From NCBI RefSeq assembly GCF_017068395.1, contig NZ_CP070619.1, positions 8,308,001 to 8,372,000 of the forward strand: 64,000 nucleotides of DNA. The letters run 5' to 3'. Both the position numbers and the translations under genes were made by a program. Shown here piece after piece: positions 4,128-46,548 of this stretch; within the stretch, counting starts at the first letter, position 1; every line of letters begins with the position of its first letter. Under the pieces are notes generated by a model that was given only the letters and a program-made list of their open reading frames with translations, did not search any database and was not told where the DNA came from. Source of the DNA: Rhodococcus pseudokoreensis (GTDB taxonomy: Bacteria; Actinomycetota; Actinomycetes; Mycobacteriales; Mycobacteriaceae).

Positions 4128-6200
4128 ATGCCAACCCAGTACAGCGTCGCGGGCAACGTCGCGACGATTCGCCTCGACAATTCTCCCGTCAACGGACTGG
4201 GGCACTCCACCCGCGTCGGGATCCTGGCAGACCTGCGCCGCGCTCTCGAGTCACCCGAGGTGGACGCCGTCGTCCTCACTGGAAGGGGAGAATTCTTCTC
4301 CGCCGGCGCCGACATCACCGAATTCGGAACACCGAATGCCGCCGCGGAACCGTCCTTGCAGACCGTGATCGACGCATTCGACGCCGCCGACAAGCCGGTG
4401 ATCGCCGCGATCGACGGCATCTGTTTCGGAGGCGGCCTCGAACTGGCACTCGGTGCGCACTTCCGTGTGGCCACCGCCGACAGCCGGATAGCGCTACCTG
4501 AGGTGACGCTCGGACTGGTGCCCGGTGCGGGCGGCACGCAGCGTCTACCGCGGGTCGTCGATCTCGAGACCGCGATCGACATGATCGTCCACGGAAATCC
4601 GCAGACGGTCCGTCGTCTTGCCGACCTGCCCGGGCAACGCCTGCTCGACCTCGTCGTCGACGATGATGCGGTCGGCGCGGCATCGCAGTTTGCTCGGCAG
4701 GTCACGGGGGTGCAGCACTTGCCGCGTATCCGCGATCTCGCTGCCCCGGACAATGGCGCCGTGACGGAGGCGGCGCGTAAACAGCTTCATCAGCGGAGCC
4801 GCGGTTCGCTCGCTCCGCTCGCCGCCCTGGACCTCCTCGAGAAGGCCACCACCCTGCCCTTCGCGGAGGGGCTGGACACCGAACGCCGCACCTTCGCCGC
4901 TCTGGTCGCCGGGGAGCAATCGGCGGCGCTCCGACACGCCTTCTTCGCCGAACGAGCAGCACGCACGATCCCCGGTCTGCCCCGGGGGATCCGCTCCCGC
5001 GTAGTCGAGACGGTGGGGGTGATCGGAGCGGGGACGATGGGCGGCGGCATCGCCATGAACTTCCTCGACGCCGGGATCCCCGTCACGCTCGTCGAATCGA
5101 AGTCCGAATCACTCGACCGGGGAATCCAGGTCATCCGGCGGAACTACCAACTGCAGGTCGACAAGGGAAAACTTGACGCCGCCGCGCTGCAACAACGGAT
5201 GGACCTGTTGACGCCCACGCTCGACTACGTGGATATAGCCGACTGCGATCTCGTCATCGAGGCAGTGTTCGAGGACATGGACGTAAAGAGAGACGTCTTC
5301 GCCGCCGTCGACGCGACCGCGAAGCCAGGTGCGATCCTCGCCTCGAACACGTCGACCCTCGATATCGACGCGATCGCGGCGATCACGTCACGGCCGGGCG
5401 ACGTCGTCGGCATGCATTTCTTCAGCCCCGCAAACGTGATGACGTTGCTGGAAGTCGTCCGTGGCAAAGAGACCACCGACGACGTGTTGGTCGCCGCGAT
5501 GGAGACCGGACGCCGGGTGGGCAAGATCGGTGTGGTCTCCGGGGTGTGCGACGGGTTCATCGGGAACCGGATGCTCGCCAGATACCAGGCCGCCGCCAAA
5601 GTGGTGCTCAACGCCGGTGCGACGCCCGCGCAGATCGATGACGCGATCGAGAACTTCGGCCTCGCGATGGGGCCGTTCCGGATGGCCGATCTTGCAGGCA
5701 ACGACATCGGTTGGGCGATCCGCAAGCGTCGCTACGCCGAGCAACCGGAATCTCCCCGTGACGCGATCAGCGACGCTCTCTGCGAGCTGGGTCGATTCGG
5801 GCAGAAGACCGGAGGTGGATGGTACGACTACGAGGCCGGAAGCCGGGTCGCGCTGCCCAGCCCGACGGTCGATTCGCTGCTGGCATCCTTCCGCGCATCG
5901 CGGGATACTGCGCTCCAGACCTTCGAGCCGGACGAGATCGTGCAACGACTGATCTTCGCCCTGGTGGACGAGGGCGCGAGGATTCTCGAGGAGGGGATCG
6001 CCTCGCGCGCGTCCGACATCGACGTGGTGTACATGTCCGGATACGGGTTCCCGCGCCACCGCGGTGGGCCGATGTTCTACGCAGACACCGTCGGACTGGA
6101 CACCGTACTGACAGCGCTTCGCCGCGTCGCCCCTCCGGGCTGGGAACCGGCATCGCTGTTGGTGCGATTGGCACGTGAGGGCGGGACCTTCAGCCGCTGA
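4128..6200 (+). CDS. fadB: bifunctional enoyl-CoA hydratase / 3-hydroxyacyl-CoA dehydrogenase
   Basis: A 690-aa two-enzyme protein of the second and third beta-oxidation steps. The N-terminal crotonase domain (about residues 1-200) has an oxyanion-hole segment FSAGADITEF and GGGLELALGAHFRVA, and the GLVPGAGGTQRLPR motif. The NAD-binding dehydrogenase domain starts near residue 295 with VGVIGAGTMGGGIA and contains the catalytic region GMHFFSPANVM. Two C-terminal 3HCDH repeats follow. The ATG at 4128 is chosen because the protein then begins like its relatives; an in-frame ATG at 4089 overlaps the SDR stop and would add 13 residues. The length fits the stand-alone FadB/PaaZ-like alpha subunits. 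Confidence 0.9.
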   Translation: MPTQYSVAGNVATIRLDNSPVNGLGHSTRVGILADLRRALESPEVDAVVLTGRGEFFSAGADITEFGTPNAAAEPSLQTVIDAFDAADKPVIAAIDGICFGGGLELALGAHFRVATADSRIALPEVTLGLVPGAGGTQRLPRVVDLETAIDMIVHGNPQTVRRLADLPGQRLLDLVVDDDAVGAASQFARQVTGVQHLPRIRDLAAPDNGAVTEAARKQLHQRSRGSLAPLAALDLLEKATTLPFAEGLDTERRTFAALVAGEQSAALRHAFFAERAARTIPGLPRGIRSRVVETVGVIGAGTMGGGIAMNFLDAGIPVTLVESKSESLDRGIQVIRRNYQLQVDKGKLDAAALQQRMDLLTPTLDYVDIADCDLVIEAVFEDMDVKRDVFAAVDATAKPGAILASNTSTLDIDAIAAITSRPGDVVGMHFFSPANVMTLLEVVRGKETTDDVLVAAMETGRRVGKIGVVSGVCDGFIGNRMLARYQAAAKVVLNAGATPAQIDDAIENFGLAMGPFRMADLAGNDIGWAIRKRRYAEQPESPRDAISDALCELGRFGQKTGGGWYDYEAGSRVALPSPTVDSLLASFRASRDTALQTFEPDEIVQRLIFALVDEGARILEEGIASRASDIDVVYMSGYGFPRHRGGPMFYADTVGLDTVLTALRRVAPPGWEPASLLVRLAREGGTFSR

Positions 6201-6245
6201 GTTGTTCGAGGCCGGGGCAGGGCGGGAGAATCCTACCGCCGACGC

Positions 6246-7373
6246 TCACCGCAGTTCCCGCGCGATCGCTCGGGCCGCGCGGCGAGCCTGCTTCGCCGCG
6301 AACCCGATCTGCGACGGCCTGGGCACGAACCCGATGAAACGCAACCTCTCGGCGGCCGGCTTTTCACCGGTCGTGTGCGGCCAACCTCGCTCGTCCAGTA
6401 CGCCGAGGTGCCCGACCAGCTTTTCGAGTTCTTGGCGGAACCCCGTCGCGCAGACCATCGCCTCCGGGTCGATTCGCATCCCGTCCACCAGCCACACGCT
6501 GTCCGCGTCGAGTGACTCGACTCCGCGAACGACCTCGATGGACCTGTCTCGGATCGCGGCGATGAGCTCCTTGTCGACGATCGCCGGTGCCACGCCGAGG
6601 CGGGCGCTGCGGGCGAAGATCCCCTCGTCGGGGATCGGTAATCCGAACTCGCGCAGGTCGCCGATGCTCCTCTCCCGGCCGAACCGAGCGATTGCGTCCG
6701 CGATAGGGACCGGGGCATGGTAGAGCGGCGTTGCGATGAAGTCTCCCGGTATGCCACCAGGTCCCTGGCGGAGCATGATGTTCGGCGGCGTGCGAGCCGA
6801 AAGCCAGACCTTTGCCGTGCCTCCGGTGGCGAGGTCGTAGGCAATTTCCATGCCCGAGCAGCCCGCTCCCACCACGAGGACCCGTTTCCCGTTGTACGGC
6901 GAGGGATTCCGGTACTGCGAGGAATGAACCAGTGCACCCCGCCAATCCCCGCGTCCGGGCCAGTCCGGGACGAAGGGCGCATGATCGAAGCCGGTCGCGA
7001 CCACCACCTCGGCAGCGTCGACCGAACCGGCAGCGGTGGTCAACCGCCAGTGCCCGTTCGTTCGGTCGAGCCGTTCCACCGGGCAGCCCAGGCGCAGCTC
7101 TATCCCGTCCGCGCGTGCGTGCCGCTCGAGATGTTCGATCACCTGTTCCCGCGTGGGAAAGGTCGGTGTGCCCTGCTTGTAGGGGCGGTTCGGCAGGTGG
7201 GAGAATTGCCTGCCGGTGTTCAGTCGCAGCCGGTCATAACGAGAGTGCCACGACGAACCGACGTGGTCGGCTCGGTCGATCAGCAACGGGTTGATGCCAC
7301 GGTCGGCGAGGGCCACCGCCGCCGCGACCCCGGAGGTGCCGGCACCGACGATTGCGACTTGATGCTCGCTCAT
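6246..7373 (-). CDS. flavin-containing monooxygenase (FMO-type)
   Basis: A 375-aa single-component FAD/NADPH monooxygenase. FAD is bound at VAIVGAGTSGVAAA at the N-terminus and NADPH at VLVVGAGCSGMEIA near residue 170. Between them lies an FMO-type fingerprint (G-ALV-H-SSQ-Y) in which the His is present. The C-terminal ATGFRQEL motif is also typical. Such enzymes oxygenate soft nucleophiles or ketones; the substrate is not visible. It follows the O-methyltransferase by 27 bases and is probably co-transcribed with it. It converges on the beta-oxidation operon with a 45-base gap. Confidence 0.87.
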   Translation of the reverse strand: MSEHQVAIVGAGTSGVAAAVALADRGINPLLIDRADHVGSSWHSRYDRLRLNTGRQFSHLPNRPYKQGTPTFPTREQVIEHLERHARADGIELRLGCPVERLDRTNGHWRLTTAAGSVDAAEVVVATGFDHAPFVPDWPGRGDWRGALVHSSQYRNPSPYNGKRVLVVGAGCSGMEIAYDLATGGTAKVWLSARTPPNIMLRQGPGGIPGDFIATPLYHAPVPIADAIARFGRERSIGDLREFGLPIPDEGIFARSARLGVAPAIVDKELIAAIRDRSIEVVRGVESLDADSVWLVDGMRIDPEAMVCATGFRQELEKLVGHLGVLDERGWPHTTGEKPAAERLRFIGFVPRPSQIGFAAKQARRAARAIARELR

Positions 7374-7400: not shown

Positions 7401-8414
7401 TCATGCGGTTTCGGCGACAATGACGCTCATCGTGCCGGTGAGCGAGCGATGGTCGCGGTAACGCCAGCCAGTGTCCTGCAGCCAGGCGATGCCTTCGTCG
7501 ACGCTGTAGACGTCGCCGTGTTCGAGGTGGACCGCGAATTCGCCCGCCATCAGGGCGGCCGCGACCGGCTGGGTGTGGGTGGGGTCGGTCCAGAAGTCGG
7601 CAATCAGCAGCGTGGCGCCGGGTGCGGCGACGTCGCGAATGCGGTGTAGCAGAGCACGATTCTGCTCCGGTGACCAGTAATGCGCCAGGTTCGCGACCAG
7701 GAAGGCGTCGTATCCGGCGGGCAGCGGGTCGGCCCCTGCGTCGCCGGCGCATACGTCGATTCGCCCCTCCAGCCCGACCGACGCGATGCGGTCCTGCGCG
7801 GTCTGGGCAACCGCCGGCAGCTCGAACACGGTCGCGCTCAGTTGCGGGCAGTGGCGCGCCACCGCGATGCACCAGGAGCCGGTGCCGCCGCCGATGTCGA
7901 GGAGTCGACGATTGCCGGACAGATCGACCGTGTCCGGCAGGGCGAGCGAGGGGCCGGCCGAAAACGCCTCGATACCGATCGAGGCGATGGGTTGCAGGGC
8001 GGCGTCGAGGTCGAAGATCTGGTGTTTCGGCCCGCGGGCTAGTGCGTCGGCCAGGCCTTCCCACGCCGGGAAGCTGATCTTGTCCCAGAACCGCAGCAGC
8101 GGACGCAGGTCGGCGGGCGATCCGCCGGCGAGGAACGCGGCCGCCGTCTCGGTATTGACATACTGTTCGCCTCGGCGTTCGAGCATACCCAGCGCGACCA
8201 TGGCGTCGGCGCTGATCCGGGCGGCTCGGGCAGTAAGCCCGGTGCGGGCGGCCAGGCCATGCAGGTCGGTGGGGCCCTCGCCCAACGCCTCGAACAAACC
8301 GAGTTCGCTGGCGGCGAAGAGGTGTTTGGCGGCCATGAACCCGGACGCCAGCTGCATGATCGGCTCCGGGTTAGGCAGGTCGGTTTCGGCGGAGGTATGG
8401 GCTGTCATCGTCAT
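7401..8414 (-). CDS. class I SAM-dependent O-methyltransferase
   Basis: A 337-aa protein with the architecture of small-molecule O-methyltransferases: an N-terminal winged-helix dimerisation domain (about residues 20-110) followed by a Rossmann methyltransferase domain with the SAM motif LLDIGGGTGSWC near residue 170. Families like this methylate phenolic or polyketide hydroxyls. Its neighbour is a flavin monooxygenase, so the pair could tailor one small molecule. It is divergent from the LuxR gene at 8522, and the 107-base gap between them carries a candidate operator. Confidence 0.85.
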   Translation of the reverse strand: MTMTAHTSAETDLPNPEPIMQLASGFMAAKHLFAASELGLFEALGEGPTDLHGLAARTGLTARAARISADAMVALGMLERRGEQYVNTETAAAFLAGGSPADLRPLLRFWDKISFPAWEGLADALARGPKHQIFDLDAALQPIASIGIEAFSAGPSLALPDTVDLSGNRRLLDIGGGTGSWCIAVARHCPQLSATVFELPAVAQTAQDRIASVGLEGRIDVCAGDAGADPLPAGYDAFLVANLAHYWSPEQNRALLHRIRDVAAPGATLLIADFWTDPTHTQPVAAALMAGEFAVHLEHGDVYSVDEGIAWLQDTGWRYRDHRSLTGTMSVIVAETA

Positions 8415-8459
8415 GAAACCAGCGTCGTTGTTGTCGGTTCTGCGTCATATCCCTGAATC

Positions 8460-8515
8460 CTGGGGAATTCACCCAGATTTCTGGGGTAGGCAGCCCTAAC
8501 CTGCTGCGATACACT
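8460..8515 (+). promoter_or_regulatory. divergent promoter region with candidate operator and leaderless -10 box
   Basis: CTGGG-N7-CCCAG (8460-8476) is an inverted repeat, and CTGGGG recurs at 8481. TACACT at 8510-8515 fits an actinobacterial -10 and lies 6 nt before the ATG at 8522, so the LuxR-type gene is probably transcribed without a leader. The inverted repeat would suit autoregulation or control of the methyltransferase pair. This is inference. Confidence 0.5.
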
Positions 8516-8521
8516 TCGGAC

Positions 8522-9646
8522 ATGGCGCAGAGCTTGCTGCCACGCGTCCGCGATCAAATCTCGCGTGCCGTCGCCGACCAGCTGGACTGGGTGGGGTACA
8601 GCGCGCGAATGAGCGAGGCCCTGCGCACGGTGATCCCACATGACCGCTGCTGCTGGCACACCGTCGACCCGGGCACCATCCTGTTCACCGGCAGCGTGAA
8701 CCGGAACGTTGGGTGTTCCGGATCCTGGTTGGCGCACTACGAATACGAGGTCGAGGACGTCGACAAGTGGGCGTTTCTTGCGCACAGTGGCCGCCTGGCG
8801 GGTGCACTGAGTCTGGATACCCACGGAGATTTGTCCCGCAGTGCACGGCACCGTTCGCACGAGGCGTACGGAATCGGCGACGAGCTGCGGGTCTCCCTGG
8901 TGTCGGACGGGGTCTATTGGGGTGCAGCGGCATTCCTGCGCGATGCGGGCGCGCCGTGGTACACCGCCGAGCACGTCCGCGCAATCGCCGCGCTGGCGCC
9001 CGCGCTCGCTACCGGTCTGCGGCGTTCGATGCTCCACGAGGTCGAGGTCGCCGTGACGACCGTGGACTACGGCCCCGGCGTGGTGGTCTTCGACGCCGCG
9101 GGCGACCCGGAATCGGTCTCACCCGCCGCGGAACGCTGGATCGACGAAATTGTCGAGGTCCCGGCGCCGTCGACGCCGTTCGAATCGAAGGTCGTGCAGG
9201 CCATCGCGGCCCGGGCGCGGGCGATCGAACCGGGCACCGATCCGCTGGAACTTGCCGCGCGCTCGCGGGTACGCACGCGATCCGGCGCCTGGCTGTTGCT
9301 GTACGGGACCAGGCTTTCCGGCGTCGAAGACGGACGCACCGCCGTCATCATCCAACCCGCGACGCCGCATGAGATCGCGCCCGTCATTGCCATGGCCTAC
9401 GGACTGTCCCAACGCGAATGCCATCTCACTGCGCTGTGCGTCCAAGGGCGATCGACAAGGGAGATGGCGCACGCAATGTCGTTATCCGTCTATACAATTC
9501 AAGACCACATGAAGTCGATCTTCGACAAAACCGGGGTGCGCAGCCGCGGGGAACTGGTGGGGCAGATATTCCTCGAGCACTACGCGCCACGCTGGGAGCT
9601 TGCGGCATCCCCGCCATCCGGATGGTGGGCGAAGGGCATCAACTGA
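8522..9646 (+). CDS. LuxR-family transcriptional regulator with GAF-like sensor region
   Basis: A 374-aa regulator. About residues 25-190 look like a GAF-type ligand-binding region (PHDRCCWHTVDPGT near the start). The C-terminal 65 or so residues form a LuxR HTH with GLSQRECHLTALCVQGRSTREMA-like spacing and recognition helix SLSVYTIQDHMKSIFDKTG. There is no receiver domain. It is transcribed away from the methyltransferase-monooxygenase pair, which it probably controls. The start is the ATG directly after the -10 box; no Shine-Dalgarno is visible. Confidence 0.85.
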   Translation: MAQSLLPRVRDQISRAVADQLDWVGYSARMSEALRTVIPHDRCCWHTVDPGTILFTGSVNRNVGCSGSWLAHYEYEVEDVDKWAFLAHSGRLAGALSLDTHGDLSRSARHRSHEAYGIGDELRVSLVSDGVYWGAAAFLRDAGAPWYTAEHVRAIAALAPALATGLRRSMLHEVEVAVTTVDYGPGVVVFDAAGDPESVSPAAERWIDEIVEVPAPSTPFESKVVQAIAARARAIEPGTDPLELAARSRVRTRSGAWLLLYGTRLSGVEDGRTAVIIQPATPHEIAPVIAMAYGLSQRECHLTALCVQGRSTREMAHAMSLSVYTIQDHMKSIFDKTGVRSRGELVGQIFLEHYAPRWELAASPPSGWWAKGIN

Positions 9647-11205: not shown

Positions 11206-13515
11206 ATGGGATCGGAGTCAGCGCCCCGGACGAATTTCGACCCGGAGTTGACGACCTTCGTCGGTCGCCGGGAGGAACTGTCGCACACACGTCAGTTGCT
11301 CGCCGAGAACCGTTTGGTGACCCTGACCGGTCTCGGGGGAGTGGGAAAGACGCGGCTGGCTCTGCGGACGGCCACGCAAGTGCAGCGGTCCTTCCGTGAC
11401 GGCGTTCGTATAGTCGAGCTCGCGGCGCTGCGGGAACCACGGCTCCTGGCGCAGACCGTCGTCGACTCGCTCAGATTGACCGAAGTGTCGGCGCGGGACT
11501 CGGTCGAAGCCATCGAGGACTATCTTCGATCGCGGCATGTGTTGCTCGTCCTCGACAATTGCGAGCAACTGCTGGCCGAGACCGCTCGTCTCGGCGTGAG
11601 GCTGCTGCAGAGTGCTCCTCACCTGCGCATCATCGCCACCAGCCGTCAAGCGCTGGGGGTCCCCGGCGAGAGGGTGCTGTCGGTGTCGCCGTTACCGGTT
11701 CCCGCCCCGGACGAACCTGTGGCCGCCGGGTCCGATCAGCGCTACGCCGCGCTGGTCCTGTTCGCCGATCGGGCAGCGACCGCGGTTCCTGGTTTCGAGG
11801 TGTCGCCGACCAACCTTCCCGAGGTGGCCCGTATCTGTCAGCAGCTCGAGGGTATCCCGCTGGCGATCGAATTGGCAGCAGTGCGGCTCAAGGTGCTGTC
11901 GGTATCCGATCTGGCCGATCGGCTCGATCGCCGGTTGCAGCTTCTGACCGAAGGCTCACGCATCACACCGGCTCGGCATCAGACGCTGCGGGCGACGATC
12001 GATTGGAGTTTCGATCTGTGCAGCCCGTCGGAGCAACTCCTGTGGACTCGGGTCGCGGTGTTCGCCGGGAGTTTCGATCTGGCTGCGGCGACGGCCGTAT
12101 GCAGCGGCGACGGGCTCGATCAGAATTCGATTCTGAACGGACTTTCCGGATTGATCGACCAGTCGATCATCGCGCGGGAGGATCGTGACGGTCACGTTCG
12201 GTTCCGGTTGCTGGAGACTCTCCGCGAGTACGGCCAGGACAAGCTGCGCGACAGCCACGCGGTGCCGACGTTACGCGATCGGCACCTGAGCTGGTTTGCG
12301 GCGCTGATGGATTCCGCCGTGGAGGATTGGTTCGGCCCGACCGAGGAGGATGTGTTCGCGCGCCTACGCCAGGAGCAGCCGAACTTGCGCGCAGCATTCG
12401 AGTACTGCCTCACGGAATCGGGGAAGCTGTCCTCGGGTCTGCGCATCGCCGGGCCGGCATGGTTTCTCTGGGCGTTCTCCCTCGCCGAAGGCAGGCACTG
12501 GCTCGATCGGCTGCTCGCTGTCGAATCCGGACCCAGCCAGGAGCACGCATGGGCGCTCGCAACGAGAGGATTCGTCACTGCCCTGCAGGGGGACCATGCG
12601 GTTGCGGCGGTCTCGCTCGAGGACTGCCTCGTCGAGGCCACCGACCTCGGCGACGAGTTGACCGTGGCGTACGGCCGTCATATCCGTGGCATGCCGGCAT
12701 ACCTCGCGGGTGATGGGGAATTCGGCGTACAGGCGATGACCGAGGCCCTGGCTCGGTACACGGGGCTGGGCGCTCCTGCCGGCCTGGTCTCCAACCTGCG
12801 GATCGGGCTGGGACTGGCATACATCTTCCTGGAGCAACCCGAGGTCGCCCTCGAGCATTTCGAGAGCAGTCGAACGCTGTCCGAGAGCCATGGCGAGCGC
12901 TGGATGCTGTCCTACGCGATTTACGGCCGGGCCTTCGTCGATTTCGCGCAAGGGCACCTCGAACCGGCCGAACGCGGTGTGCGCGACGCATTGCGCTTGT
13001 ACCAAGTCTTTCCGGACTCGCTCGGCCGAGCCATGGCGCTCGACCTCTACGCCTGGGTGTGTGCGGATAACCATGAGCCCGAGCGAGCCGCCTTCTTCCT
13101 CGGATGCGCTCAACGTCTGTGGTCGAGCCTCGGACAGCAGTTGTTCGGCTCCAGGTCATGGCAGGTGCATCGGGAGCGTTGTGAAGAGTCTGCGCGGCGG
13201 GATGCAGGTAACCGGTTGTTCGACAGTTCTTTCGAGCGCGGTGCGGGACTGCCTCCGGAGGAGGTGCTGGCATACGCGCTCGAAGGGCGGTCGGTCCCGG
13301 CGCCGGTGGCACCGTCGTCGCAGCGCGACATACTGACACCGCGCGAAACGGAGGTGGCCGGCTTGGTGAGCGAGGGCCTGTCCAATCGCGAGATCGCCGA
13401 GCGGCTCGTGATCTCGCCGCGCACGGTCGCAACGCACGTCGAAAATGTCCTCGTCAAACTGGGCTTCACCTCGCGGACCAGTATCGCTGCGTGGATCACG
13501 GCGCGAAAAGCGTGA
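11206..13515 (+). CDS. large ATP-binding LuxR-family regulator (AfsR/LAL-like)
   Basis: A regulator of about 769 aa. Its NB-ARC/AAA-type ATPase starts with FVGRREEL, has the Walker A loop LTGLGGVGKTRLAL near residue 45, Walker B LLVLDNCEQLL near 125, and the GIPLAIELAAVRL motif. A helical repeat region (TPR-like, about 370-680) follows, then a C-terminal LuxR HTH (TPRETEVAGLVSEGLSNREIA). Such STAND-type proteins act as signal-gated activators. ATG at 11206 is preferred; GTG at 11194 is an in-frame alternative lying too close to AGGGG. The target is unknown. Confidence 0.88.
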   Translation: MGSESAPRTNFDPELTTFVGRREELSHTRQLLAENRLVTLTGLGGVGKTRLALRTATQVQRSFRDGVRIVELAALREPRLLAQTVVDSLRLTEVSARDSVEAIEDYLRSRHVLLVLDNCEQLLAETARLGVRLLQSAPHLRIIATSRQALGVPGERVLSVSPLPVPAPDEPVAAGSDQRYAALVLFADRAATAVPGFEVSPTNLPEVARICQQLEGIPLAIELAAVRLKVLSVSDLADRLDRRLQLLTEGSRITPARHQTLRATIDWSFDLCSPSEQLLWTRVAVFAGSFDLAAATAVCSGDGLDQNSILNGLSGLIDQSIIAREDRDGHVRFRLLETLREYGQDKLRDSHAVPTLRDRHLSWFAALMDSAVEDWFGPTEEDVFARLRQEQPNLRAAFEYCLTESGKLSSGLRIAGPAWFLWAFSLAEGRHWLDRLLAVESGPSQEHAWALATRGFVTALQGDHAVAAVSLEDCLVEATDLGDELTVAYGRHIRGMPAYLAGDGEFGVQAMTEALARYTGLGAPAGLVSNLRIGLGLAYIFLEQPEVALEHFESSRTLSESHGERWMLSYAIYGRAFVDFAQGHLEPAERGVRDALRLYQVFPDSLGRAMALDLYAWVCADNHEPERAAFFLGCAQRLWSSLGQQLFGSRSWQVHRERCEESARRDAGNRLFDSSFERGAGLPPEEVLAYALEGRSVPAPVAPSSQRDILTPRETEVAGLVSEGLSNREIAERLVISPRTVATHVENVLVKLGFTSRTSIAAWITARKA

Positions 13516-28270: not shown

Positions 28271-29194
28271 CTAGGCGCCTTCGGGGGCCAGGACGATGGC
28301 GAAATCGGCTCTGGCCCAGCTGCGCCCAGTCAGGTCGCGTCCGTCCGGGGTGGGGGTTCCGGCGGGTTGTTGATCGAAGCGGGTGATCAGCGAGTCTTTG
28401 ACACCGAAGACGGAGTCTCCGATGTCGATCTGCGGATCACCCGCGACGAAGATGTGGGTGACCAGCGTCCGCTGGTGCGGTGCGGAGACCATGAAATGCA
28501 GGTGCGCCGCCCGCACGGGGGAGCGGCCCGTGGCCTCGAGCATCCGGCCGACCGGTCCGTCGTGCGGGATCGGGTACGGGACCGGTGTCAGCCCCCAGAA
28601 TCGGTACCAACCGTTGTCGTCGGAAAACAGGTGGGCCCGGCCGGCGATCCGGTGATCGTCGTACTGGACGTCGTAGTAGCCGTCCTCGTCGCATTCCCAC
28701 ACCTCGATGCGGGCGCCGGCGACGGGACGGCCGTCGGTGTCGGTGACGGTGCCCTCGATCCAGCATGGTTGTCCGGTCGCACCGCCGGCGATATCGCCAC
28801 CGCACGGGATTTCCGGGGCGTCGTCGACGAAGAACGGGCCGAACACGGTCGCCTCGGTGGCGCCCTGGTAGGCCTGATTGTTCACCGCGATCGTCTGCAT
28901 GGATGCACCCAGCACGTCGGAGAGCAGGACGAACTCCTGCCGCGTGTCGTCGGTGATGTGCCCGCACTCGGTGAGAAACGTGATGGCGGTGTTCCATTCG
29001 GCCTCGGTCAACCGGACCTCCCGGATGAAACCGTGCAGATACTTCACCAGGGACTGCATGAGCTGCCGCAGTCGCGGATCCGCAGTGCCGGCAAACGAGG
29101 CGGCCACTCGTGCAACGAGTTCCTCCTCCACCGTTTGCTGCTCGTCGCTCTGTGTGCTGGCTGAGTCGGGTGCAGTCGTGGGCTGCTCGGTCAT
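28271..29194 (-). CDS. hydroxyquinol 1,2-dioxygenase (intradiol ring cleavage)
   Basis: A 307-aa non-haem Fe(III) dioxygenase that opens hydroxyquinol (1,2,4-trihydroxybenzene) to maleylacetate. The iron ligands are visible: Tyr in DGYYDVQ, Tyr in GWYRFWG, and the two His in RAAHLHFMV. The N-terminal linker-dimerisation domain is present. Hydroxyquinol rather than catechol is favoured because a maleylacetate reductase gene is directly upstream, sharing an ATGA overlap (29191-29194). It is the last gene of the operon. Confidence 0.88.
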
Positions 29195-37411: not shown

Positions 37412-38056
37412 CTATCGGGCCGACATGTTGTCGATGATCTGTGCGACGTGCTGGGCGCTCATCGGGCTCGCGTCGAGTGTGTCCGCGCCGGGCCGCAGTC
37501 CCGCGATCATGATCGCCATGGTCCGCCGCCACCCAATGTCGGTGACGCCGCGGGTTGTCGCGACGACGCCGCGCACGGACCAGAAGATGAGGTCCAGGTC
37601 GGCGTCGACGGCATCCTCGCGGATGCGGCCGTGTTGCTTGGCCCGCGCCAGGAGTTCGAACAGGATCCGTCGGTACTCGTCCCGCAGGATCCTGGTCTCG
37701 TCGTCGTTCCACATACGAGACAAACATCCGCGGTTGGACGCCAGGATGGCGCCGGTGCCGTACAGAACCTGCTCGAGGCCTTCACCGTCCGGCGCGGACA
37801 AGGCTTCGTTGGCCACGGCCAGGAAGTCGTCGTATACCTGTCTGACGAGTTCACTGACCAATGCATCCTTCGTGGGGAACCGGCGGTAGAGGGTGCCGAT
37901 CCCGACGCCGGCGACCCGGGCGATCTCGTCGACCCCCACATCCAGGCCGCGCTCGCTGAACACGGTCGCGGCCGCGTCGAGGAGCCGCTGCCGATTCTCC
38001 GCGGCGTCGCGGCGCAGCGCCCTTTCGCTTCCCCGAACCCTCACGTCGGACTTCAT
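37412..38056 (-). CDS. TetR-family transcriptional regulator
   Basis: A 214-aa repressor with HTH residues in DEIARVAGVGIGTLYRRFPTKDALV near position 45. The ATG overlaps the MFS stop (ATGA), so it is the second gene of an MFS-TetR operon, and autoregulation through the palindrome at 39545-39562 is likely. Confidence 0.88.
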   Translation of the reverse strand: MKSDVRVRGSERALRRDAAENRQRLLDAAATVFSERGLDVGVDEIARVAGVGIGTLYRRFPTKDALVSELVRQVYDDFLAVANEALSAPDGEGLEQVLYGTGAILASNRGCLSRMWNDDETRILRDEYRRILFELLARAKQHGRIREDAVDADLDLIFWSVRGVVATTRGVTDIGWRRTMAIMIAGLRPGADTLDASPMSAQHVAQIIDNMSAR

Positions 38057-40970: not shown

Positions 40971-42350
40971 TTACGGCTGCGGAACGGCCCGCACACGCCG
41001 TTCGAGGGCCAGCACGCAGAAGCCCGCAACAACGAGGATCATCGCCATCGCGAAGAAGACCTCGCGGGGCGCAACGCCGGCGCTCAGCGCGGCACCGACG
41101 ATCAGTGGGGCGGCGATTCCGCCCAGTCGGCCGATTCCGAGTGCCCATCCCACTCCGGTCGAGCGCATGTCGGTCGGATAGAGGACTGTCGCCAAGGCGA
41201 TCACGCTCATCTGACCGCCGGTGACGCATGTCCCCGTGAGAAACGCCGCGACCAGAAGGGTCACGGTGCTGCCGCCGCCGAGCACCCATCCGAGCAGGGC
41301 CACGAAACCGGCACCGACGAGATAGACCGTTCCGAGTGTGCGAAATGGGCTGATGCGGTCCATGGCAGGGCCGATGAACATGGCCGCGGCAATGCCACCC
41401 ACAGTGGTGAGAACAGTGCAAGCGATGACGACGCGTGACGATTGACCCAGGGAGCCGACGATCGTCGGAAGCCAGCTCTGGATGGCATAGAACGCCGCCA
41501 GGTTCGCACCGAAGGCAAGCCAGAGCAGGAGGGTGTTCAGGAACCACCGACCCCGTACGAGGTCGAGAACTGCTGAGGTTTTCCCTTTCGAGGTTCCCGC
41601 GGGGCGGCTGTCTTCTGATGCGTCCGCCAGGACGATGGCGTTGCAGGGCAGGGCGGGATCGAGGCGGCGCAGAGTGGCATTTGCGCGATCGCCGGCGCCG
41701 CGTAGGAGCAGGTATCTGGGGGATTCCGGAAAGTAACGCAGCAAGAACATCAACAGCACCAACGGTACGGTGCCTCCGACGATGAACATCGCGCGCCAAC
41801 CCCACAGCGGAATGACGAATCCGGAGACGACCCCGGCCGCCACGAATCCGAAGGCGTACCAGCAATAGATGAACATCACGAAGGACGAGCGTCGCCGGGC
41901 CGGTGCGAACTCACTGACAAGTCCGACGAGACTGGGAATGGCAGCGCCGAGCCCGGCCCCCGTGAGGAATCGCAGTGCGATCAATTGGAGCGGCGATTCT
42001 GTGAATGCACACAGCAGGGTCAAGATGCCGAACATCGCGGTGCAGAAGACAACTGCGCGTCGCTGCCCGGATCGATGAGCGAGCGGTGCAAGGCACAGGT
42101 AGCCAACCATCAGGCCGACGATGGCCGCGGAAAAGATCGGACCGAGGGAGGCAACGGGTAGTCCCCACTCGTGAGCGATGGACGGGGCCGCGAAACTGAT
42201 TGCCTGAGTGTCGAAGCCATCGAGAAACATGACTGCGCCGGCAAGAGCGAGGAGAAGGTAGTGGAAGCGGCCCACGGGCTGCCGGTCGATGAGTTCACCG
42301 ACGCGGACCCCGGTGACGGATGCGTGCGAACTGGAGAGTTCAGAGGCCAT
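40971..42350 (-). CDS. AAHS-family aromatic acid:H+ symporter (MFS)
   Basis: A 459-aa, 12-helix transporter. It has the D-G-F-D-T-Q motif in the first helix, typical of aromatic acid uptake permeases such as PcaK/BenK, and a motif A-like loop APLAHRSGQRRAV. It is transcribed away from the DoxX gene, and two copies of the regulon palindrome lie in between. It most likely imports the nitroaromatic or related acid that the downstream nitroreductase and lyase transform. The substrate is inferred from context. Confidence 0.85.
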   Translation of the reverse strand: MASELSSSHASVTGVRVGELIDRQPVGRFHYLLLALAGAVMFLDGFDTQAISFAAPSIAHEWGLPVASLGPIFSAAIVGLMVGYLCLAPLAHRSGQRRAVVFCTAMFGILTLLCAFTESPLQLIALRFLTGAGLGAAIPSLVGLVSEFAPARRRSSFVMFIYCWYAFGFVAAGVVSGFVIPLWGWRAMFIVGGTVPLVLLMFLLRYFPESPRYLLLRGAGDRANATLRRLDPALPCNAIVLADASEDSRPAGTSKGKTSAVLDLVRGRWFLNTLLLWLAFGANLAAFYAIQSWLPTIVGSLGQSSRVVIACTVLTTVGGIAAAMFIGPAMDRISPFRTLGTVYLVGAGFVALLGWVLGGGSTVTLLVAAFLTGTCVTGGQMSVIALATVLYPTDMRSTGVGWALGIGRLGGIAAPLIVGAALSAGVAPREVFFAMAMILVVAGFCVLALERRVRAVPQP

Positions 42351-42485
42351 TGCGACTTCGCTTTCGCTCAGGTGCGAGTTGAGTTGAGTTGAATGTTGGT
42401 TCTTCGGCTTTCGTCACGCGCCGCGAGCCCTTCTGGGAGCGGACGGTGGATCGGGGCCGGTGCTGAAACCATAGAAGTGCGTTCC

Positions 42486-42506
42486 GTTACAGTCAATACC
42501 TGTAAC
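42486..42506. promoter_or_regulatory. regulon operator, site 1
   Basis: A 21-bp palindrome, GTTACAG-N7-CTGTAAC, with perfect arms. It is upstream of both the AAHS gene (136 bases) and the DoxX gene (145 bases). Confidence 0.8.
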
Positions 42507-42523
42507 CTAACTTGTTGTATTGC

Positions 42524-42544
42524 ATTACGAACATTGACTGTAAC
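42524..42544. promoter_or_regulatory. regulon operator, site 2
   Basis: A 21-bp copy on the opposite strand. GTTACAGTCAAT is identical to site 1; the other arm is degenerate (CGTAAT). The two sites face each other 17 bases apart. Confidence 0.75.
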
Positions 42545-42650
42545 GAAACGTGGATCTAGGCTTCGCCCGCCGGAGGTCGGTGCGAAACCATTGCGGGGCA
42601 CTCGATGCCGCCGCGGCCGATCTACCCAACATCCCGAAGGAAAACCAGCG

Positions 42651-43163
42651 ATGAACTCATTCGATCTCGCCATGCTGCTGCTGCGCGTCACGCTCGGCCT
42701 GACTATGGCTGCTCACGGATACCACAAGATCTTTCTCGGTGGCCGAATTTCGGGTAACGCCAAGTGGTTCGAAAGCTTGGGCATGCGTCCGGGCTTCCTG
42801 CACGCTCGGGTGGCGGCCGGGACGGAGATCGTCGCCGGAATCGGTCTCGCGGCCGGATTCTTCACCACCGTCGCCGCGGCAGTGTTTGTGGCGCTCATGC
42901 TTGTTGCAGCGTGGACCGTGCACCGCACCATGGGCTTCTACGTGATGACCTCGGGTTGGGAGTACACCCTCGTCATCGCGGTATCCGCGGTGTGCGTTGC
43001 GGTGCTCGGTGCGGGGCGGATCAGTATCGAGCAGTTGGTGTTCGGCGGCAACCCGGTCGACGGGTGGGCCGGCCTCGTCATTGCGGCCGGGGTGGGAATT
43101 CTCGGCGGAGTAGTACAACTGGCGCTGTTCTATCGACCCGCGAAGGTTGCGGTGGGCACGTAG
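42651..43163 (+). CDS. DoxX family membrane protein
   Basis: A 170-aa protein with about four membrane helices, opening with R-V-T-L-G-L-T-M-A-A-H-G-Y and carrying the W-F-E-S-L-G-M-R-P loop. It is paralogous to the protein at 13696-14220. ATG at 42651 follows GAAGGAAAA. It shares the two-operator region with the AAHS gene, so the nitroaromatic TetR probably controls it. Confidence 0.87.
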   Translation: MNSFDLAMLLLRVTLGLTMAAHGYHKIFLGGRISGNAKWFESLGMRPGFLHARVAAGTEIVAGIGLAAGFFTTVAAAVFVALMLVAAWTVHRTMGFYVMTSGWEYTLVIAVSAVCVAVLGAGRISIEQLVFGGNPVDGWAGLVIAAGVGILGGVVQLALFYRPAKVAVGT

Positions 43164-43179
43164 GAATCCGAAAACGGCG

Positions 43180-43210
43180 GTGGCCCCCCACACTTCGTGT
43201 GGGGGGCCAC
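43180..43210. terminator. bidirectional terminator
   Basis: A 14-bp perfect stem (GTGGCCCCCCACAC / GTGTGGGGGGCCAC) with a 3-base loop lies between the converging DoxX and nitroreductase genes. Confidence 0.85.
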
Positions 43211-43214
43211 TGGC

Positions 43215-43964
43215 CTACGGGGAGTCGCCGTGGAAGGTGGCGAATGAGGCGACGGGTTCCCGGGGAGTTCGGTGCCGGCTGAGCCGGTGCTCGTGGTCCG
43301 CATATCCCAGCGCAAGTCCGCAGACGATCACCTGATCGTCGGGGATGTCGAGGTGCCTGCGCAGAACCGGGTAGAAGTCGATGAACGATGCCTGGGGGCA
43401 TGTGGCGAGTCCGGCGCCGCGGGCGGCGAGCATCAATGCCTGCAGGAAGAGACCTGCGTCTACGAGCGCACCGTCGAGGGGGTGCCGACTGACCGACAGG
43501 ATGATGCCGACGGGAGCGCCGAAGAATTCGTAGTTGCGGCGATGGTGGGCCAGCCTGGCCGCTGAGTCGTTTGCCGCGATGCCCAGGGTGTTGCCGTACA
43601 GGCCCTCACCGAATTGGCGCCGACGCGTACGAAACGGCTCCGCCCATTCGTCCGGTTTGGGCTGGTAGTTGTACTCCCGCGTACTGACATGCTCCTCGCA
43701 TTCGTGGGCAGCGAGAAGTGCTGATGTCAGGCGCGTCTTCGCTGAGCCGGTTACGACATGGACCTGCCACGGCTGGCAGTTCGAATTGCTGGCCGACCGT
43801 GCGGCCAACTCGAGTAGGTGTTCGACATCGTCGCGGGGGACCGGTGTCGGCAGGAAGGCCCGAACACTTCGCCTGCTCAGTAACGCCTGCTCGACGGTCA
43901 TGTCGTCATTCGCTCGGTGTACGGCGCGGGACGCCGGCGGGGCGGTGGTGGTCACGTCATTCAC
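43215..43964 (-). CDS. pnbA: nitroreductase (PnbA-like, probable nitrobenzoate reductase)
   Basis: A 249-aa FMN-dependent nitroreductase. The FMN-binding RRSVRAFLPTPV is near residue 30, SASNSNCQPWQVHVV follows, and ARGAGLATCPQASF is near residue 190. It would reduce a nitroaromatic acid to the hydroxylamine. The specific call rests on the lyase gene immediately upstream (24 bases) on the same strand: together they form the two-step nitro-to-catechol route known for 4-nitrobenzoate. The start is GTG at 43964. Confidence 0.75.
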   Translation of the reverse strand: MNDVTTTAPPASRAVHRANDDMTVEQALLSRRSVRAFLPTPVPRDDVEHLLELAARSASNSNCQPWQVHVVTGSAKTRLTSALLAAHECEEHVSTREYNYQPKPDEWAEPFRTRRRQFGEGLYGNTLGIAANDSAARLAHHRRNYEFFGAPVGIILSVSRHPLDGALVDAGLFLQALMLAARGAGLATCPQASFIDFYPVLRRHLDIPDDQVIVCGLALGYADHEHRLSRHRTPREPVASFATFHGDSP

Positions 43965-43988
43965 AGTGCATGCACCCCCTTTTCTTGA

Positions 43989-44501
43989 TCAGACGGTGGC
44001 GGCGGGTGTGATGTCGTAGGAGATCCGTCCAGCGGGCAGATAGAACAGAGCGATCAGGGCGCCGCCTCGCACCTCCGGGTAATGGTGGCTTCCCGGTCCG
44101 GGTGCGGTCCAGCCTGCGCCGCACCATCCGCGCGGACCGGCCAACTCGGCGCCGGGGTCGAGGGGTACTACCAAGTTGAGTTCACCGTACGGATGCTGGT
44201 GGTACTGGCCCCGGTACCGGGAAATGCTGTTCATGTAGACCGCAGTGACACTGAAGAAGTGGAGTTCCTCACTCGGCGAGGCAATTCGGCTGCGGCGATA
44301 CTTGGCTCCGTCGAGCTCCACATTCGCTGCCCACCCGTCGTTGACGCCTTCGGTGATCATTCGAGCCAGGTCGTCGTACAACTCGGTCCCGGGGCCGTAG
44401 TTGGTGTTGAGCCACGCCTCCAACTCGCCGCCGGCGGTCCGGTTCTTGACCTCGTCGAGAAACGGGATACTGCGATCGATCAGGGCCTGACTGGGATTCA
44501 T
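43989..44501 (-). CDS. pnbB: 4-hydroxylaminobenzoate lyase (PnbB, DUF4863 family)
   Basis: A 170-aa small cupin-like protein. It has the family pattern LEAWLN near the start, DGWAANVE, then QYHQHPYGELNLVVPL with two His, APGPGSHHYPEVRGGALIALFYLPAGRI. It would convert 4-hydroxylaminobenzoate to protocatechuate with release of ammonia. ATG at 44501 has GGAG 6 nt upstream; the longer frame would run through the operator. It heads the lyase-nitroreductase operon, with a regulon operator 65 bases upstream. Confidence 0.75.
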   Translation of the reverse strand: MNPSQALIDRSIPFLDEVKNRTAGGELEAWLNTNYGPGTELYDDLARMITEGVNDGWAANVELDGAKYRRSRIASPSEELHFFSVTAVYMNSISRYRGQYHQHPYGELNLVVPLDPGAELAGPRGWCGAGWTAPGPGSHHYPEVRGGALIALFYLPAGRISYDITPAATV

Positions 44502-44565
44502 GGCGCACTCCTGGATGAGACTTCCCGCCACGTCTGTGGCTACTGCCACACTAAGACGTAGTTCA

Positions 44566-44586
44566 GTTACAGTCAATATGTGTAAC
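44566..44586. promoter_or_regulatory. regulon operator, site 3
   Basis: A 21-bp palindrome with GTTACA / TGTAAC arms and the same GTCAAT core half as sites 1 and 2. It is upstream of the lyase-nitroreductase operon. Confidence 0.8.
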
Positions 44587-44694
44587 GTATCTGTGAGGCT
44601 GCAGCGCGGCCGAGTCGCCAACTCCACGGCGTAGCAGTGCTACCCGGAACGTGGGCGGAGCTTCAATGCGGCCCCGAAGCGGGGAGGCTACTCG

Positions 44695-44715
44695 GTTACA
44701 ATGATCACCCGTAAC
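44695..44715. promoter_or_regulatory. regulon operator, site 4
   Basis: A 21-bp copy, GTTAC-N11-GTAAC, with a more divergent centre, 22 bases upstream of the TetR start. It is suited to autorepression. Confidence 0.72.
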
Positions 44716-44737
44716 GGAACGAGCGTTAGGGTGGGTC

Positions 44738-45382
44738 ATGACCGAGAAGGCAACCAACACGGATTCGCAGGAGAGTGCCGACGCAGAGGCCGCCACCCGT
44801 GGGGGCCGTCCCCGTGATCCATCTCTCGACGACGCCATCATCCAGGCGACCCGGCGGCGATTGGTAGTCGACGGGTACTCGAGAATGACGTTGGGCGACA
44901 TCGCATCCGATGCAGGCGTCACCCGCCCCACGCTCTATCGACGGTGGCCGGGAAAATTCGAACTCGTCGTCGACGCCCTCGACTTCGGCTTCCGCGCGCA
45001 ACGTGCGACCTACCCGAATCAAGAACTCGCGAAATTGCGACCGTTCGAAGCCTTCACCGAGGCCATCAGGCGCGTCGACCCGTGCTACTTCAATCCGGAC
45101 GCGATGATTCTCATGGGCAACTTCATGGGCGAGGCCTTCCGAACACCCGAACTACTCGAGATCGTGCGTGAACACGCAGTGGAACCACGCGTCGATCTGG
45201 TCGAACGCGTGCTCGATGATCTGCGAAGTCGCGGCGAAGTACGCGAGGACATCGACACCCACACCCTGGCCACCGTCTGCTTCGGCAGCTACTACGCCGC
45301 CTTTCTTCGCGGCGACAGCGATCGCGAGGATCTGGCCGAGAAGGTCGCGGCGACTCTGTGGCCGGGAATTGCGGTCGTGTAA
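44738..45382 (+). CDS. TetR-family regulator of the nitroaromatic regulon
   Basis: A 214-aa repressor with the HTH at about residues 45-70 ([27 protein letters not shown]) and a helical ligand domain. It is divergent from the lyase-nitroreductase operon. A copy of the 21-bp palindrome lies just before its start and three more lie at the other promoters, so it is the obvious binder. TTAGGGTGGG precedes the ATG. Confidence 0.88.
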
Positions 45383-45436: not shown

Positions 45437-46417
45437 TCACTCCGCGTCGGCGCGGTGGGCGGTGCCGAAGCGGCGTTGGAAGGCGGTCGGAGACATCGAC
45501 AGCTCTCGCACGAACACGCGTCGGAGACTTTCGTAGCTGGGAAATCCGGCGAGTGATGCTGCCTGTGTTGCGGTGTGTCCCTGGTCGAGGAGGGCCTTTG
45601 CCAGGTCGAAGCGGATCAGTTCGACGTAGCGGGCCGGGGTGGTGGACAGTTCGGTTCGGAACAGGCGTGTGAGGTGCCGGGCGCTGACGTTGAGGTGTTC
45701 GGCGAGTTCGGTGAGGGAGTGTTTCCCGGCGGGGTCCGCTGTCACCAGGTCCACGATGCGGCGCAGGGCGGGTGTTCGCGGTGGTGGGCCCTGGAGTGGG
45801 GCGGAGAATTGTGATTGTCCGCCGGCGCGCTGCAAGTAGACCACCAGGTGCCGGGCGACGTCGCGGGTCAGGTCGGGGCCGTGGTCTTCCTCGACGAGTG
45901 CCAGTGCCAGGTCGATGCCGGCGCTGACGCCGGCGGAGGTGTAGGTGGTGCCGTCGCGAACGTAGATCGAATCGGGTTCGACGTGCGTCGAGGGGTGCCG
46001 GGCAGCGAGTTGGTGTGCGACTTTCCAGTGCGTGGTGGTGCGCTTGCCGTCCAGGAGTCCGGCGGCGGCGAGGATGAACGCCCCGGTGCAGATGGACCCG
46101 ACCCGCGCGGCTCGCGTGGCGAGCGTGTGGGTGGCGTCGACGAGGTCTCGGGCGACGGCGGTTCGGGGATAGATGTCGCCGCCGGCGACGAGGAAGGTGT
46201 CGGGGGCAGGCTCCGATTCGGGGTCGCCGTCGACGGAGAGGTGGATGCCGATCGACGAGGCCACGTCGGCGCCGGTGGGGGAGAGCAGCCCGATCCGGTA
46301 GTCGGCGCCGCAGCGATTGGCTTCTGCGAACACCTCGGCGGGGCCGGCGACGTCGAGCAGTTTCACGCCGTCGTAGACGAGAATCGCGACCCGATGCGGG
46401 TGGGCGCTGCTGTCCAC
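45437..46417 (-). CDS. GlxA-type regulator (DJ-1/PfpI domain plus AraC HTH)
   Basis: A 326-aa regulator. The DJ-1/GATase1-like domain occupies about residues 8-190 (VAILVYDGVKLLDVAGPAEVF; elbow SICTGAFILAAAGLLDG with Cys in the nucleophile position). The AraC HTH is at the C-terminus (LTELAEHLNVSARHLTRLFR, then SLAGFPSYESLRRVFVRELS). GTG at 46417 is chosen because the protein then begins at the fold; the frame stays open to 46507. It is divergent from the HD-domain gene, which it may control. Confidence 0.83.
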   Translation of the reverse strand: MDSSAHPHRVAILVYDGVKLLDVAGPAEVFAEANRCGADYRIGLLSPTGADVASSIGIHLSVDGDPESEPAPDTFLVAGGDIYPRTAVARDLVDATHTLATRAARVGSICTGAFILAAAGLLDGKRTTTHWKVAHQLAARHPSTHVEPDSIYVRDGTTYTSAGVSAGIDLALALVEEDHGPDLTRDVARHLVVYLQRAGGQSQFSAPLQGPPPRTPALRRIVDLVTADPAGKHSLTELAEHLNVSARHLTRLFRTELSTTPARYVELIRFDLAKALLDQGHTATQAASLAGFPSYESLRRVFVRELSMSPTAFQRRFGTAHRADAE

Positions 46418-46548
46418 TCTTACCGCCTGTCCTGATTCGGGTGCTTCATGGCCGGAACGGGGCGGCGCTGGTCCGGGATGTTCGGCATCGTAAGGGGACG
46501 GACACACCGTCCGTTCTACAACATCGACATCTGGAAGGGCAGGGCCCC

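Follow-up and report, generated by a model that had tools for sequence, protein, structure and literature searches.

Among the described systems that we compared, the closest functional parallel found for the locus reported here is MbdR of Azoarcus sp. CIB, a TetR repressor of 3-methylbenzoate catabolism (PMC4424350). In the accessible part of that report, the palindrome ATAC-N10-GTAT is repeated at several promoters of one aromatic cluster, including that of the repressor itself; the operators cover the -10 box and at some promoters also the -35 box, and a pathway intermediate relieves repression, with 3-methylbenzoyl-CoA proven as the inducer (PMC4424350). We analyzed a stretch of 64,000 nucleotides from Rhodococcus pseudokoreensis (NZ_CP070619.1, positions 8,308,001 to 8,372,000; the window), in which a TetR-family regulator gene is found near four copies of one inverted repeat and near genes for PnbB (a predicted 4-hydroxylaminobenzoate lyase), a nitroreductase, a DoxX family protein and a transporter resembling the aromatic acid/H+ symporters (AAHS). 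As in what can be seen of MbdR, the same predicted operator is present at the catabolic promoters and at the regulator's own, where it overlaps a predicted -10 or -35 box. The parallel drawn here is one of function. Compared to MbdR, the TetR of the window has another half-site and an operator of 31 bp instead of 18 bp, and the MbdR pathway is anaerobic.

Two other groups of known systems bear on this locus. First, TetR operators bound by a dimer of dimers are given as 28 bp for QacR, 32 bp for CgmR, 31 bp for Ms6564 and 22 bp for CprB, and single-dimer operators as 15-17 bp, in the portions of the sources available (PMC4150764, PMC9210681). With 29 to 31 conserved bp, the operator in the window is nearer to the lengths of QacR, Ms6564 and CgmR than to those of single-dimer operators, and by analogy each copy is probably bound by two TetR dimers. 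The Ms6564-DNA structure (4jl3) is among the PDB sequence relatives of the TetR, as a weak match (E 1.7e-6) confined to the DNA-binding part. Second, the accessible text on the pnbAB pathway of 4-nitrobenzoate describes a nitroreductase and a 4-hydroxylaminobenzoate lyase (PMC9590159), and the same two enzyme families are encoded here. In Nocardia testacea CS1, a chloramphenicol cluster that includes pnbAB is regulated by an IclR regulator, ChdR, according to the part of the report consulted (PMC13400229). Of the 26 plasmid records that matched PnbB, four proteobacterial ones were viewed: three of them have a LysR regulator annotated no more than 4 kb from the lyase gene, and none has a TetR within that range, the gene table being incomplete. 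Among the matches listed from a partial open-access literature, no title or start of an abstract concerned this operator or the control of pnb genes by a TetR regulator. The pnbAB pathway was reportedly described by Hughes and Williams in 2001.

Our favored reading, to which we assign a probability of about 85%, is that the TetR encoded at 44738-45382 acts as an autoregulated local repressor of four promoters through 31-bp operators and would be released from them by an aromatic inducer. The regulator and its predicted operators are as follows.

44738..45382, plus strand: TetR-family regulator of 214 amino acids, above the family cut-offs (N-terminal helix-turn-helix TetR_N, PF00440, 40.9 bits, cut-off 24; C-terminal domain, PF16859, 44.3 bits, cut-off 32)
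42481..42511, minus strand: operator O1 at the promoter of the AAHS-like transporter, core 42486-42506, exact to GTTNNGTTAC-N11-GTAACNNAAC, matrix score 44.1
42519..42549, plus strand: operator O2 at the DoxX promoter, core 42524-42544 (one core mismatch), two mismatches to the 31-bp pattern, matrix score 41.7
44561..44591, minus strand: operator O3 at the PnbB-nitroreductase promoter, core 44566-44586, one mismatch to the 31-bp pattern, matrix score 42.7
44690..44720, plus strand: operator O4 at the promoter of tetR itself, core 44695-44715, two mismatches to the 31-bp pattern, matrix score 28.6

The initial annotation had noticed four palindromes of 21 bp at 42486, 42524, 44566 and 44695, and both the spacing and the coordinates proved correct. 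It had read GTTAC...GTAAC in all four, which slightly overstates the case: GTTAC-N11-GTAAC is exact at 42486-42506, 44566-44586 and 44695-44715 (dinucleotide-shuffle expectation for the window, 0.00), but the copy at 42524-42544 reads ATTAC...GTAAC, with one mismatch. The half-site that it had assigned to three of the four copies, GTTACAGTCAAT, is indeed exact at 42486 (plus), 42533-42544 (minus) and 44566 (plus), the 42524 copy being oppositely oriented. Beyond the 21-bp core, the symmetric bases continue with GTT-N2 before it and N2-AAC after it, resulting in a 31-bp operator with the pattern GTTNNGTTAC-N11-GTAACNNAAC and a quasi-palindromic consensus of approximately RTTNCGTTACAGTCA-N-TGACTGTAACGNAAY. 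In 19 structural-gene sites, the conserved positions span -14 to +14 (29 bp), which lies within the roughly 28-32 bp of QacR-type operators. These outer GTT and AAC arms, together with promoter boxes that overlap the sites, are additions to the earlier description.

The specificity of the sites was assessed by mismatch scans of whole genomes and by a scoring matrix applied to the window and to fetched loci (cited below by our labels, such as L001). In the 9.87-Mb genome, the exact 21-mer occurs four times, three of them in this locus; the other, at 7683483 (L001), was rejected as a fifth member of the regulon with a matrix score of 1.1. When one mismatch is allowed, the 21-mer is found at 38 places compared to 60 for a reversed-pattern control, and thus it is not specific by itself. 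The 31-bp pattern within two mismatches is found at four places, all in this locus, and its reversed control at two. Frequent copies away from catabolic genes, which the initial annotation said would count against its proposal, are therefore not seen for the 31-bp operator, although the 21-mer with one mismatch is common. Within three mismatches there are 11 places versus 14 for the control; the seven with exactly three mismatches were set aside as being within the control level, and the six of them that were fetched (L020-L025) score at most 12.3. The matrix was built from 32 of the 34 sites outside the window, with two weak L056 sites left out and the window sites excluded, and it ranks the four window sites first at 44.1, 42.7, 41.7 and 28.6, followed by a site at 4.2. 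The highest score in 40 simulated 64-kb windows is 16.1, and L012, which has one core mismatch, stays below this maximum at 14.6. A chance repeat was rejected on the shuffle expectation, the confinement of the four 31-bp places to this locus and the gap in matrix scores. Because the reversed patterns also find matches, what is distinctive is the clustering of four sites in 2.2 kb together with their conservation, and not rarity alone.

Conservation of the sites can be followed within the genus and beyond it. Four other genomes of the genus carry this cluster with operators at the corresponding promoters (G203, G201 and G213 with four sites each, G023 with three): O1, O3 and O4 are found in all four of these loci and O2 in three. 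O1 is also present on plasmid pNicSoilB8 of Arthrobacter sp. NicSoilB8, which carries five operator sites and encodes a lyase and a TetR that are 81% and 71% identical to those of the window. In the window, L039 and L041, the operators of pnbB and tetR are retained, but the sequence that separates them has diverged so far that it can scarcely be aligned. A fixed helical phasing of the AAHS and DoxX operators was considered and rejected, as five loci gave start-to-start distances of 38, 35, 121, 96 and 34 bp. Among named organisms in the genome collection, the closest TetR relatives found are from Rhodococcus koreensis DSM 44498 (96%) and R. jostii NBRC 16295 (88%). In a 50-sequence alignment, residues R63, P64, T65, Y67, R68, R69 and W70 are invariant, and in this family these positions would belong to the recognition helix. 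PnbB itself is rare in the samples searched, being found in two of 201 genomes of the family and in one of 394 of the class, the latter being this genome.

The distribution of the motif points to the protein that goes with it. In a genus sample of 28 genomes, the five that have the TetR hold 17 places within two mismatches, 14 of them in this locus, and the 23 that lack it hold three, which is the chance level (reversed control, 14 over the 28 genomes). An order sample of 397 genomes contains nine with a TetR match at E <=1e-50, including this genome and G023; the other seven provided eight TetR loci of 63-68% identity, and every one of the eight has an exact 21-bp core within 1.3 kb. PnbB is present in three of these eight (L053, L055 and L056, from two genomes). 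Collectively, the operators and this TetR (at least 63% identity) are found together in 14/14 loci: the window, four of the genus, one Arthrobacter plasmid and the eight from the order sample. In L029, where the TetR has 35% identity, no operator match was found within four mismatches. Open frames in L052-L059, L072 and L073 were called with a simple custom script. Since the operators accompany the TetR orthologues even in loci with no PnbB in the stretch read, and genomes without the TetR are at the chance level, the motif goes with the TetR rather than with the nitroaromatic genes. The earlier proposal that one repressor, the adjacent TetR, would bind all of the sites is thus strongly supported by comparative sequence evidence.

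The same distribution gives most room to a different view of what the TetR does, namely that it binds these sites but serves mainly as a general sensor of electrophiles or xenobiotics, with the nitrobenzoate genes as one of several targets and an inducer that is no nitrobenzoate. TetR orthologues with the operator share clusters with genes for DsbA-like proteins, a PF00797 N-acetyltransferase, a second nitroreductase, an FMN reductase and a cupin (L056-L059), and in L028 the gene for a TetR relative of 50% identity and a carboxylic acid reductase-like gene are divergently oriented. The DsbA-like genes were identified by Pfam in L056, L057 and L059 and by resemblance in L058; the FMN reductase belongs to L057 and the cupin to L059. 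Because other genera have the same regulator and operator at other genes as well, this TetR lineage is broader than nitroaromatics. However, PnbB and the nitroreductase stand at the operator in the window and the other four genus loci, as well as on the Arthrobacter plasmid and in two genomes of the order sample, and an AAHS-like transporter does so in six loci, so that we regard a mainly general sensor as unlikely, if well worth keeping in mind.

Far less probable is that the sites belong to another regulator, such as the AraC-type protein encoded at 45437-46507 or a distant global factor, and that the TetR is a mere neighbor. The AraC-type gene does lie nearby in the window, L039, L040 and L041, and the regulators compared were those encoded in the window; however, no such gene was detected around the operators of L042, L043, L053, L055 or L056, and both the constant company of operators and TetR and the chance-level counts in genus genomes without the TetR speak for the latter. 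Among the three window regulators compared (this TetR, the AraC-type protein and a second TetR at 37412), the first alone is present in 9/9 PnbB loci.

How the TetR could act is suggested by the promoters. The initial annotation had placed the sites in the shared AAHS/DoxX promoter region, before the lyase-nitroreductase genes and before tetR, and a predicted promoter indeed overlaps each of them. These boxes were predicted from the sequence and from the promoters of the other loci.

42468..42496, minus strand: predicted AAHS promoter, -35 TTGACT at 42491-42496, -10 TATGGT at 42468-42473, spacer 17
42534..42562, plus strand: predicted DoxX promoter, -35 TTGACT at 42534-42539, -10 TAGGCT at 42557-42562, spacer 17
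44548..44576, minus strand: predicted pnbB promoter, -35 TTGACT at 44571-44576, -10 TAGTGT at 44548-44553, spacer 17
44697..44702, plus strand: probable -10 of tetR, TACAAT, inside O4, with no clear -35 seen

Read along the direction of transcription, the operator center at the AAHS, DoxX and PnbB sites is TTGACT. Across the loci, 17 of 19 such sites have TTGAC and 18 of 19 have TANNNT exactly 17 nt further on, neither of which was part of the search pattern. Each site was oriented by the gene that it precedes; for L043 6510, the gene used is a DoxX match that tblastn returned in three pieces. At the 12 tetR sites, the center is not conserved and GTTAC and GTAAC are kept, and in the five tetR sites of this genus the left arm continues into TACAAT or TACGAT, a likely -10. 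On these predictions, the half-site common to three window copies serves both as a -35 box and as a portion of the operator, so that a promoter box and an operator half-site share the same bases. Since the operator contains the -35 box at three promoters and covers the probable -10 box at tetR, bound repressor would exclude RNA polymerase. That the shared sequence merely reflects related promoters with a conserved -35 region, and no operator at all, is hardly credible: TTGACT with a 17-nt spacer to TANNNT is indeed common to the three structural promoters, but the tetR sites lack TTGAC yet keep both arms, the structural promoters have one arm upstream of -35, where a promoter needs none, and clustered sites occur only where the TetR does.

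The genes under the predicted control, and the regulator gene beyond tetR, are as follows.

43989..44501, minus strand: PnbB-type 4-hydroxylaminobenzoate lyase of 170 amino acids, activity predicted, assigned by PF16155 (226.8 bits, cut-off 26.9, residues 10-162)
43215..43964, minus strand: nitroreductase of 249 amino acids, PF00881, with 3gr3 and NfnB (2wzv) as PDB sequence relatives
40971..42350, minus strand: aromatic acid/H+ symporter-like transporter of the major facilitator superfamily (MFS), 459 amino acids, PF07690
42651..43163, plus strand: DoxX family membrane protein of 170 amino acids, PF07681, 71.2 bits
45437-46507: AraC-type regulator, after tetR and followed by HD-domain and CMD-family proteins

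Gene order and the gap between them suggest that the nitroreductase gene is probably co-transcribed with pnbB. The transporter is called only AAHS-like because TIGR00895, its best NCBIfam match, scores below the cut-off (329.9 versus 418.55 bits). The earlier label of a nitroaromatic regulon suits this locus, which has the PnbB lyase and an NfnB-related nitroreductase, but the regulator has no strict tie to nitroaromatics, since in other genera it and its operator are also found at other genes. The genome has eight stretches that match intradiol dioxygenases (PF00775), including two closely spaced pairs (near 6.21 and 7.53 Mb) that might represent the subunits of protocatechuate 3,4-dioxygenase; hence protocatechuate could be used by the host. 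One intradiol dioxygenase domain (PF00775, 114.5 bits) is in the window itself, at 28340-28792 on the minus strand, about 12 kb from the regulon.

In the model that we favor, the local TetR would bind the four 31-bp operators at the AAHS-like, DoxX, pnbB-nitroreductase and tetR promoters and would thereby block RNA polymerase at each of these promoters. The operators may then be freed by an aromatic inducer. From the genes present, the likeliest candidates are 4-nitrobenzoate and the intermediate of its reduction, 4-hydroxylaminobenzoate, which the lyase is expected to consume. After release, the transporter, nitroreductase and lyase would take up the presumed substrate and convert it towards protocatechuate.

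Several observations weigh against this model or parts of it. First, a single 31-bp match means little, as the reversed control gives two in this genome and 14 over 28 genomes within two mismatches. Second, five of the eight order-level loci show no PnbB in the stretch read (18 kb; 3.5 kb for L052), and therefore the inducer need not be nitrobenzoate. Third, conservation is uneven: the 12 tetR sites show little conservation of the left outer arm, and no operator was found at the DoxX promoter of G023 (L042). Fourth, the overlap with promoter boxes is weaker outside the AAHS, DoxX and PnbB sites, as among all 26 non-tetR sites 19 have TTGAC and 19 have TANNNT at a distance of 17 nt; the seven that the count of 19 omits (the shared L055 site, L043 11329, the L056 N-acetyltransferase and second nitroreductase sites, the L057 hydrolase site and the L058 and L059 DsbA sites) have TTGAC in two cases and TANNNT at 17 nt in one. 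Finally, operator length is the sole basis of the two-dimer step.

Other features were seen in the related loci. On the Arthrobacter plasmid (L043), a perfect 31-bp inverted repeat at 11329-11359, with TTGACT-N17-TATTGT, precedes a short open frame; another frame, further on, resembles a transposase by eye. At 5911-6365 of the same plasmid locus, a DoxX match lies beside the AAHS gene in three tblastn pieces; as no gene is annotated there in an incomplete table, it may be a broken gene. In L040 (about 8410-9600) and L042 (8135-9367), an extra MFS transporter gene separates pnbB from tetR and shares the pnbB operator, from which the two genes diverge; the window, L039 and L041 have no such gene at this position. 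A remnant of it was sought in the window, L039 and L041 with no significant result, and we therefore make no claim of gene loss. In L056 (8287-10599), next to the PnbB gene, the N-acetyltransferase (PF00797) and second nitroreductase genes flank the TetR orthologue, each with an operator-like site. In L028, a related inverted repeat at 7897-7927 lies between the genes for the 50%-identity TetR and the carboxylic acid reductase-like protein, with a score of 13.0, below the simulated maximum. An identical operator-like 31-mer with two mismatches is found between open frames, upstream of a large frame, at L072 2141-2171 and L073 2162-2192; in these two TetR-bearing genomes it is possibly an extra regulon member or a mark of shared ancestry.

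The logic proposed here, a local TetR repressor with autoregulation and occlusion of -35 or -10 boxes, is textbook, which limits the surprise of the finding. It does provide a predicted actinobacterial regulator and operator for a nitroaromatic pathway whose lyase has a LysR gene nearby in three of the four proteobacterial plasmids viewed. As the operator tracks a single TetR lineage through several genera, it is usable for regulon prediction and for a biosensor. More tentatively, and at somewhat less than even odds in our judgment, this lineage may be a portable sensor of aryl-nitro and aryl-hydroxylamine compounds in Actinomycetota, separate from the proteobacterial LysR, whose long operator would have been fitted into the -35 regions of unrelated promoters. 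Its targets would then be lyase and nitroreductase genes in certain genera and, elsewhere, genes for acetyltransferase, DsbA-like, DoxX and reductase proteins.

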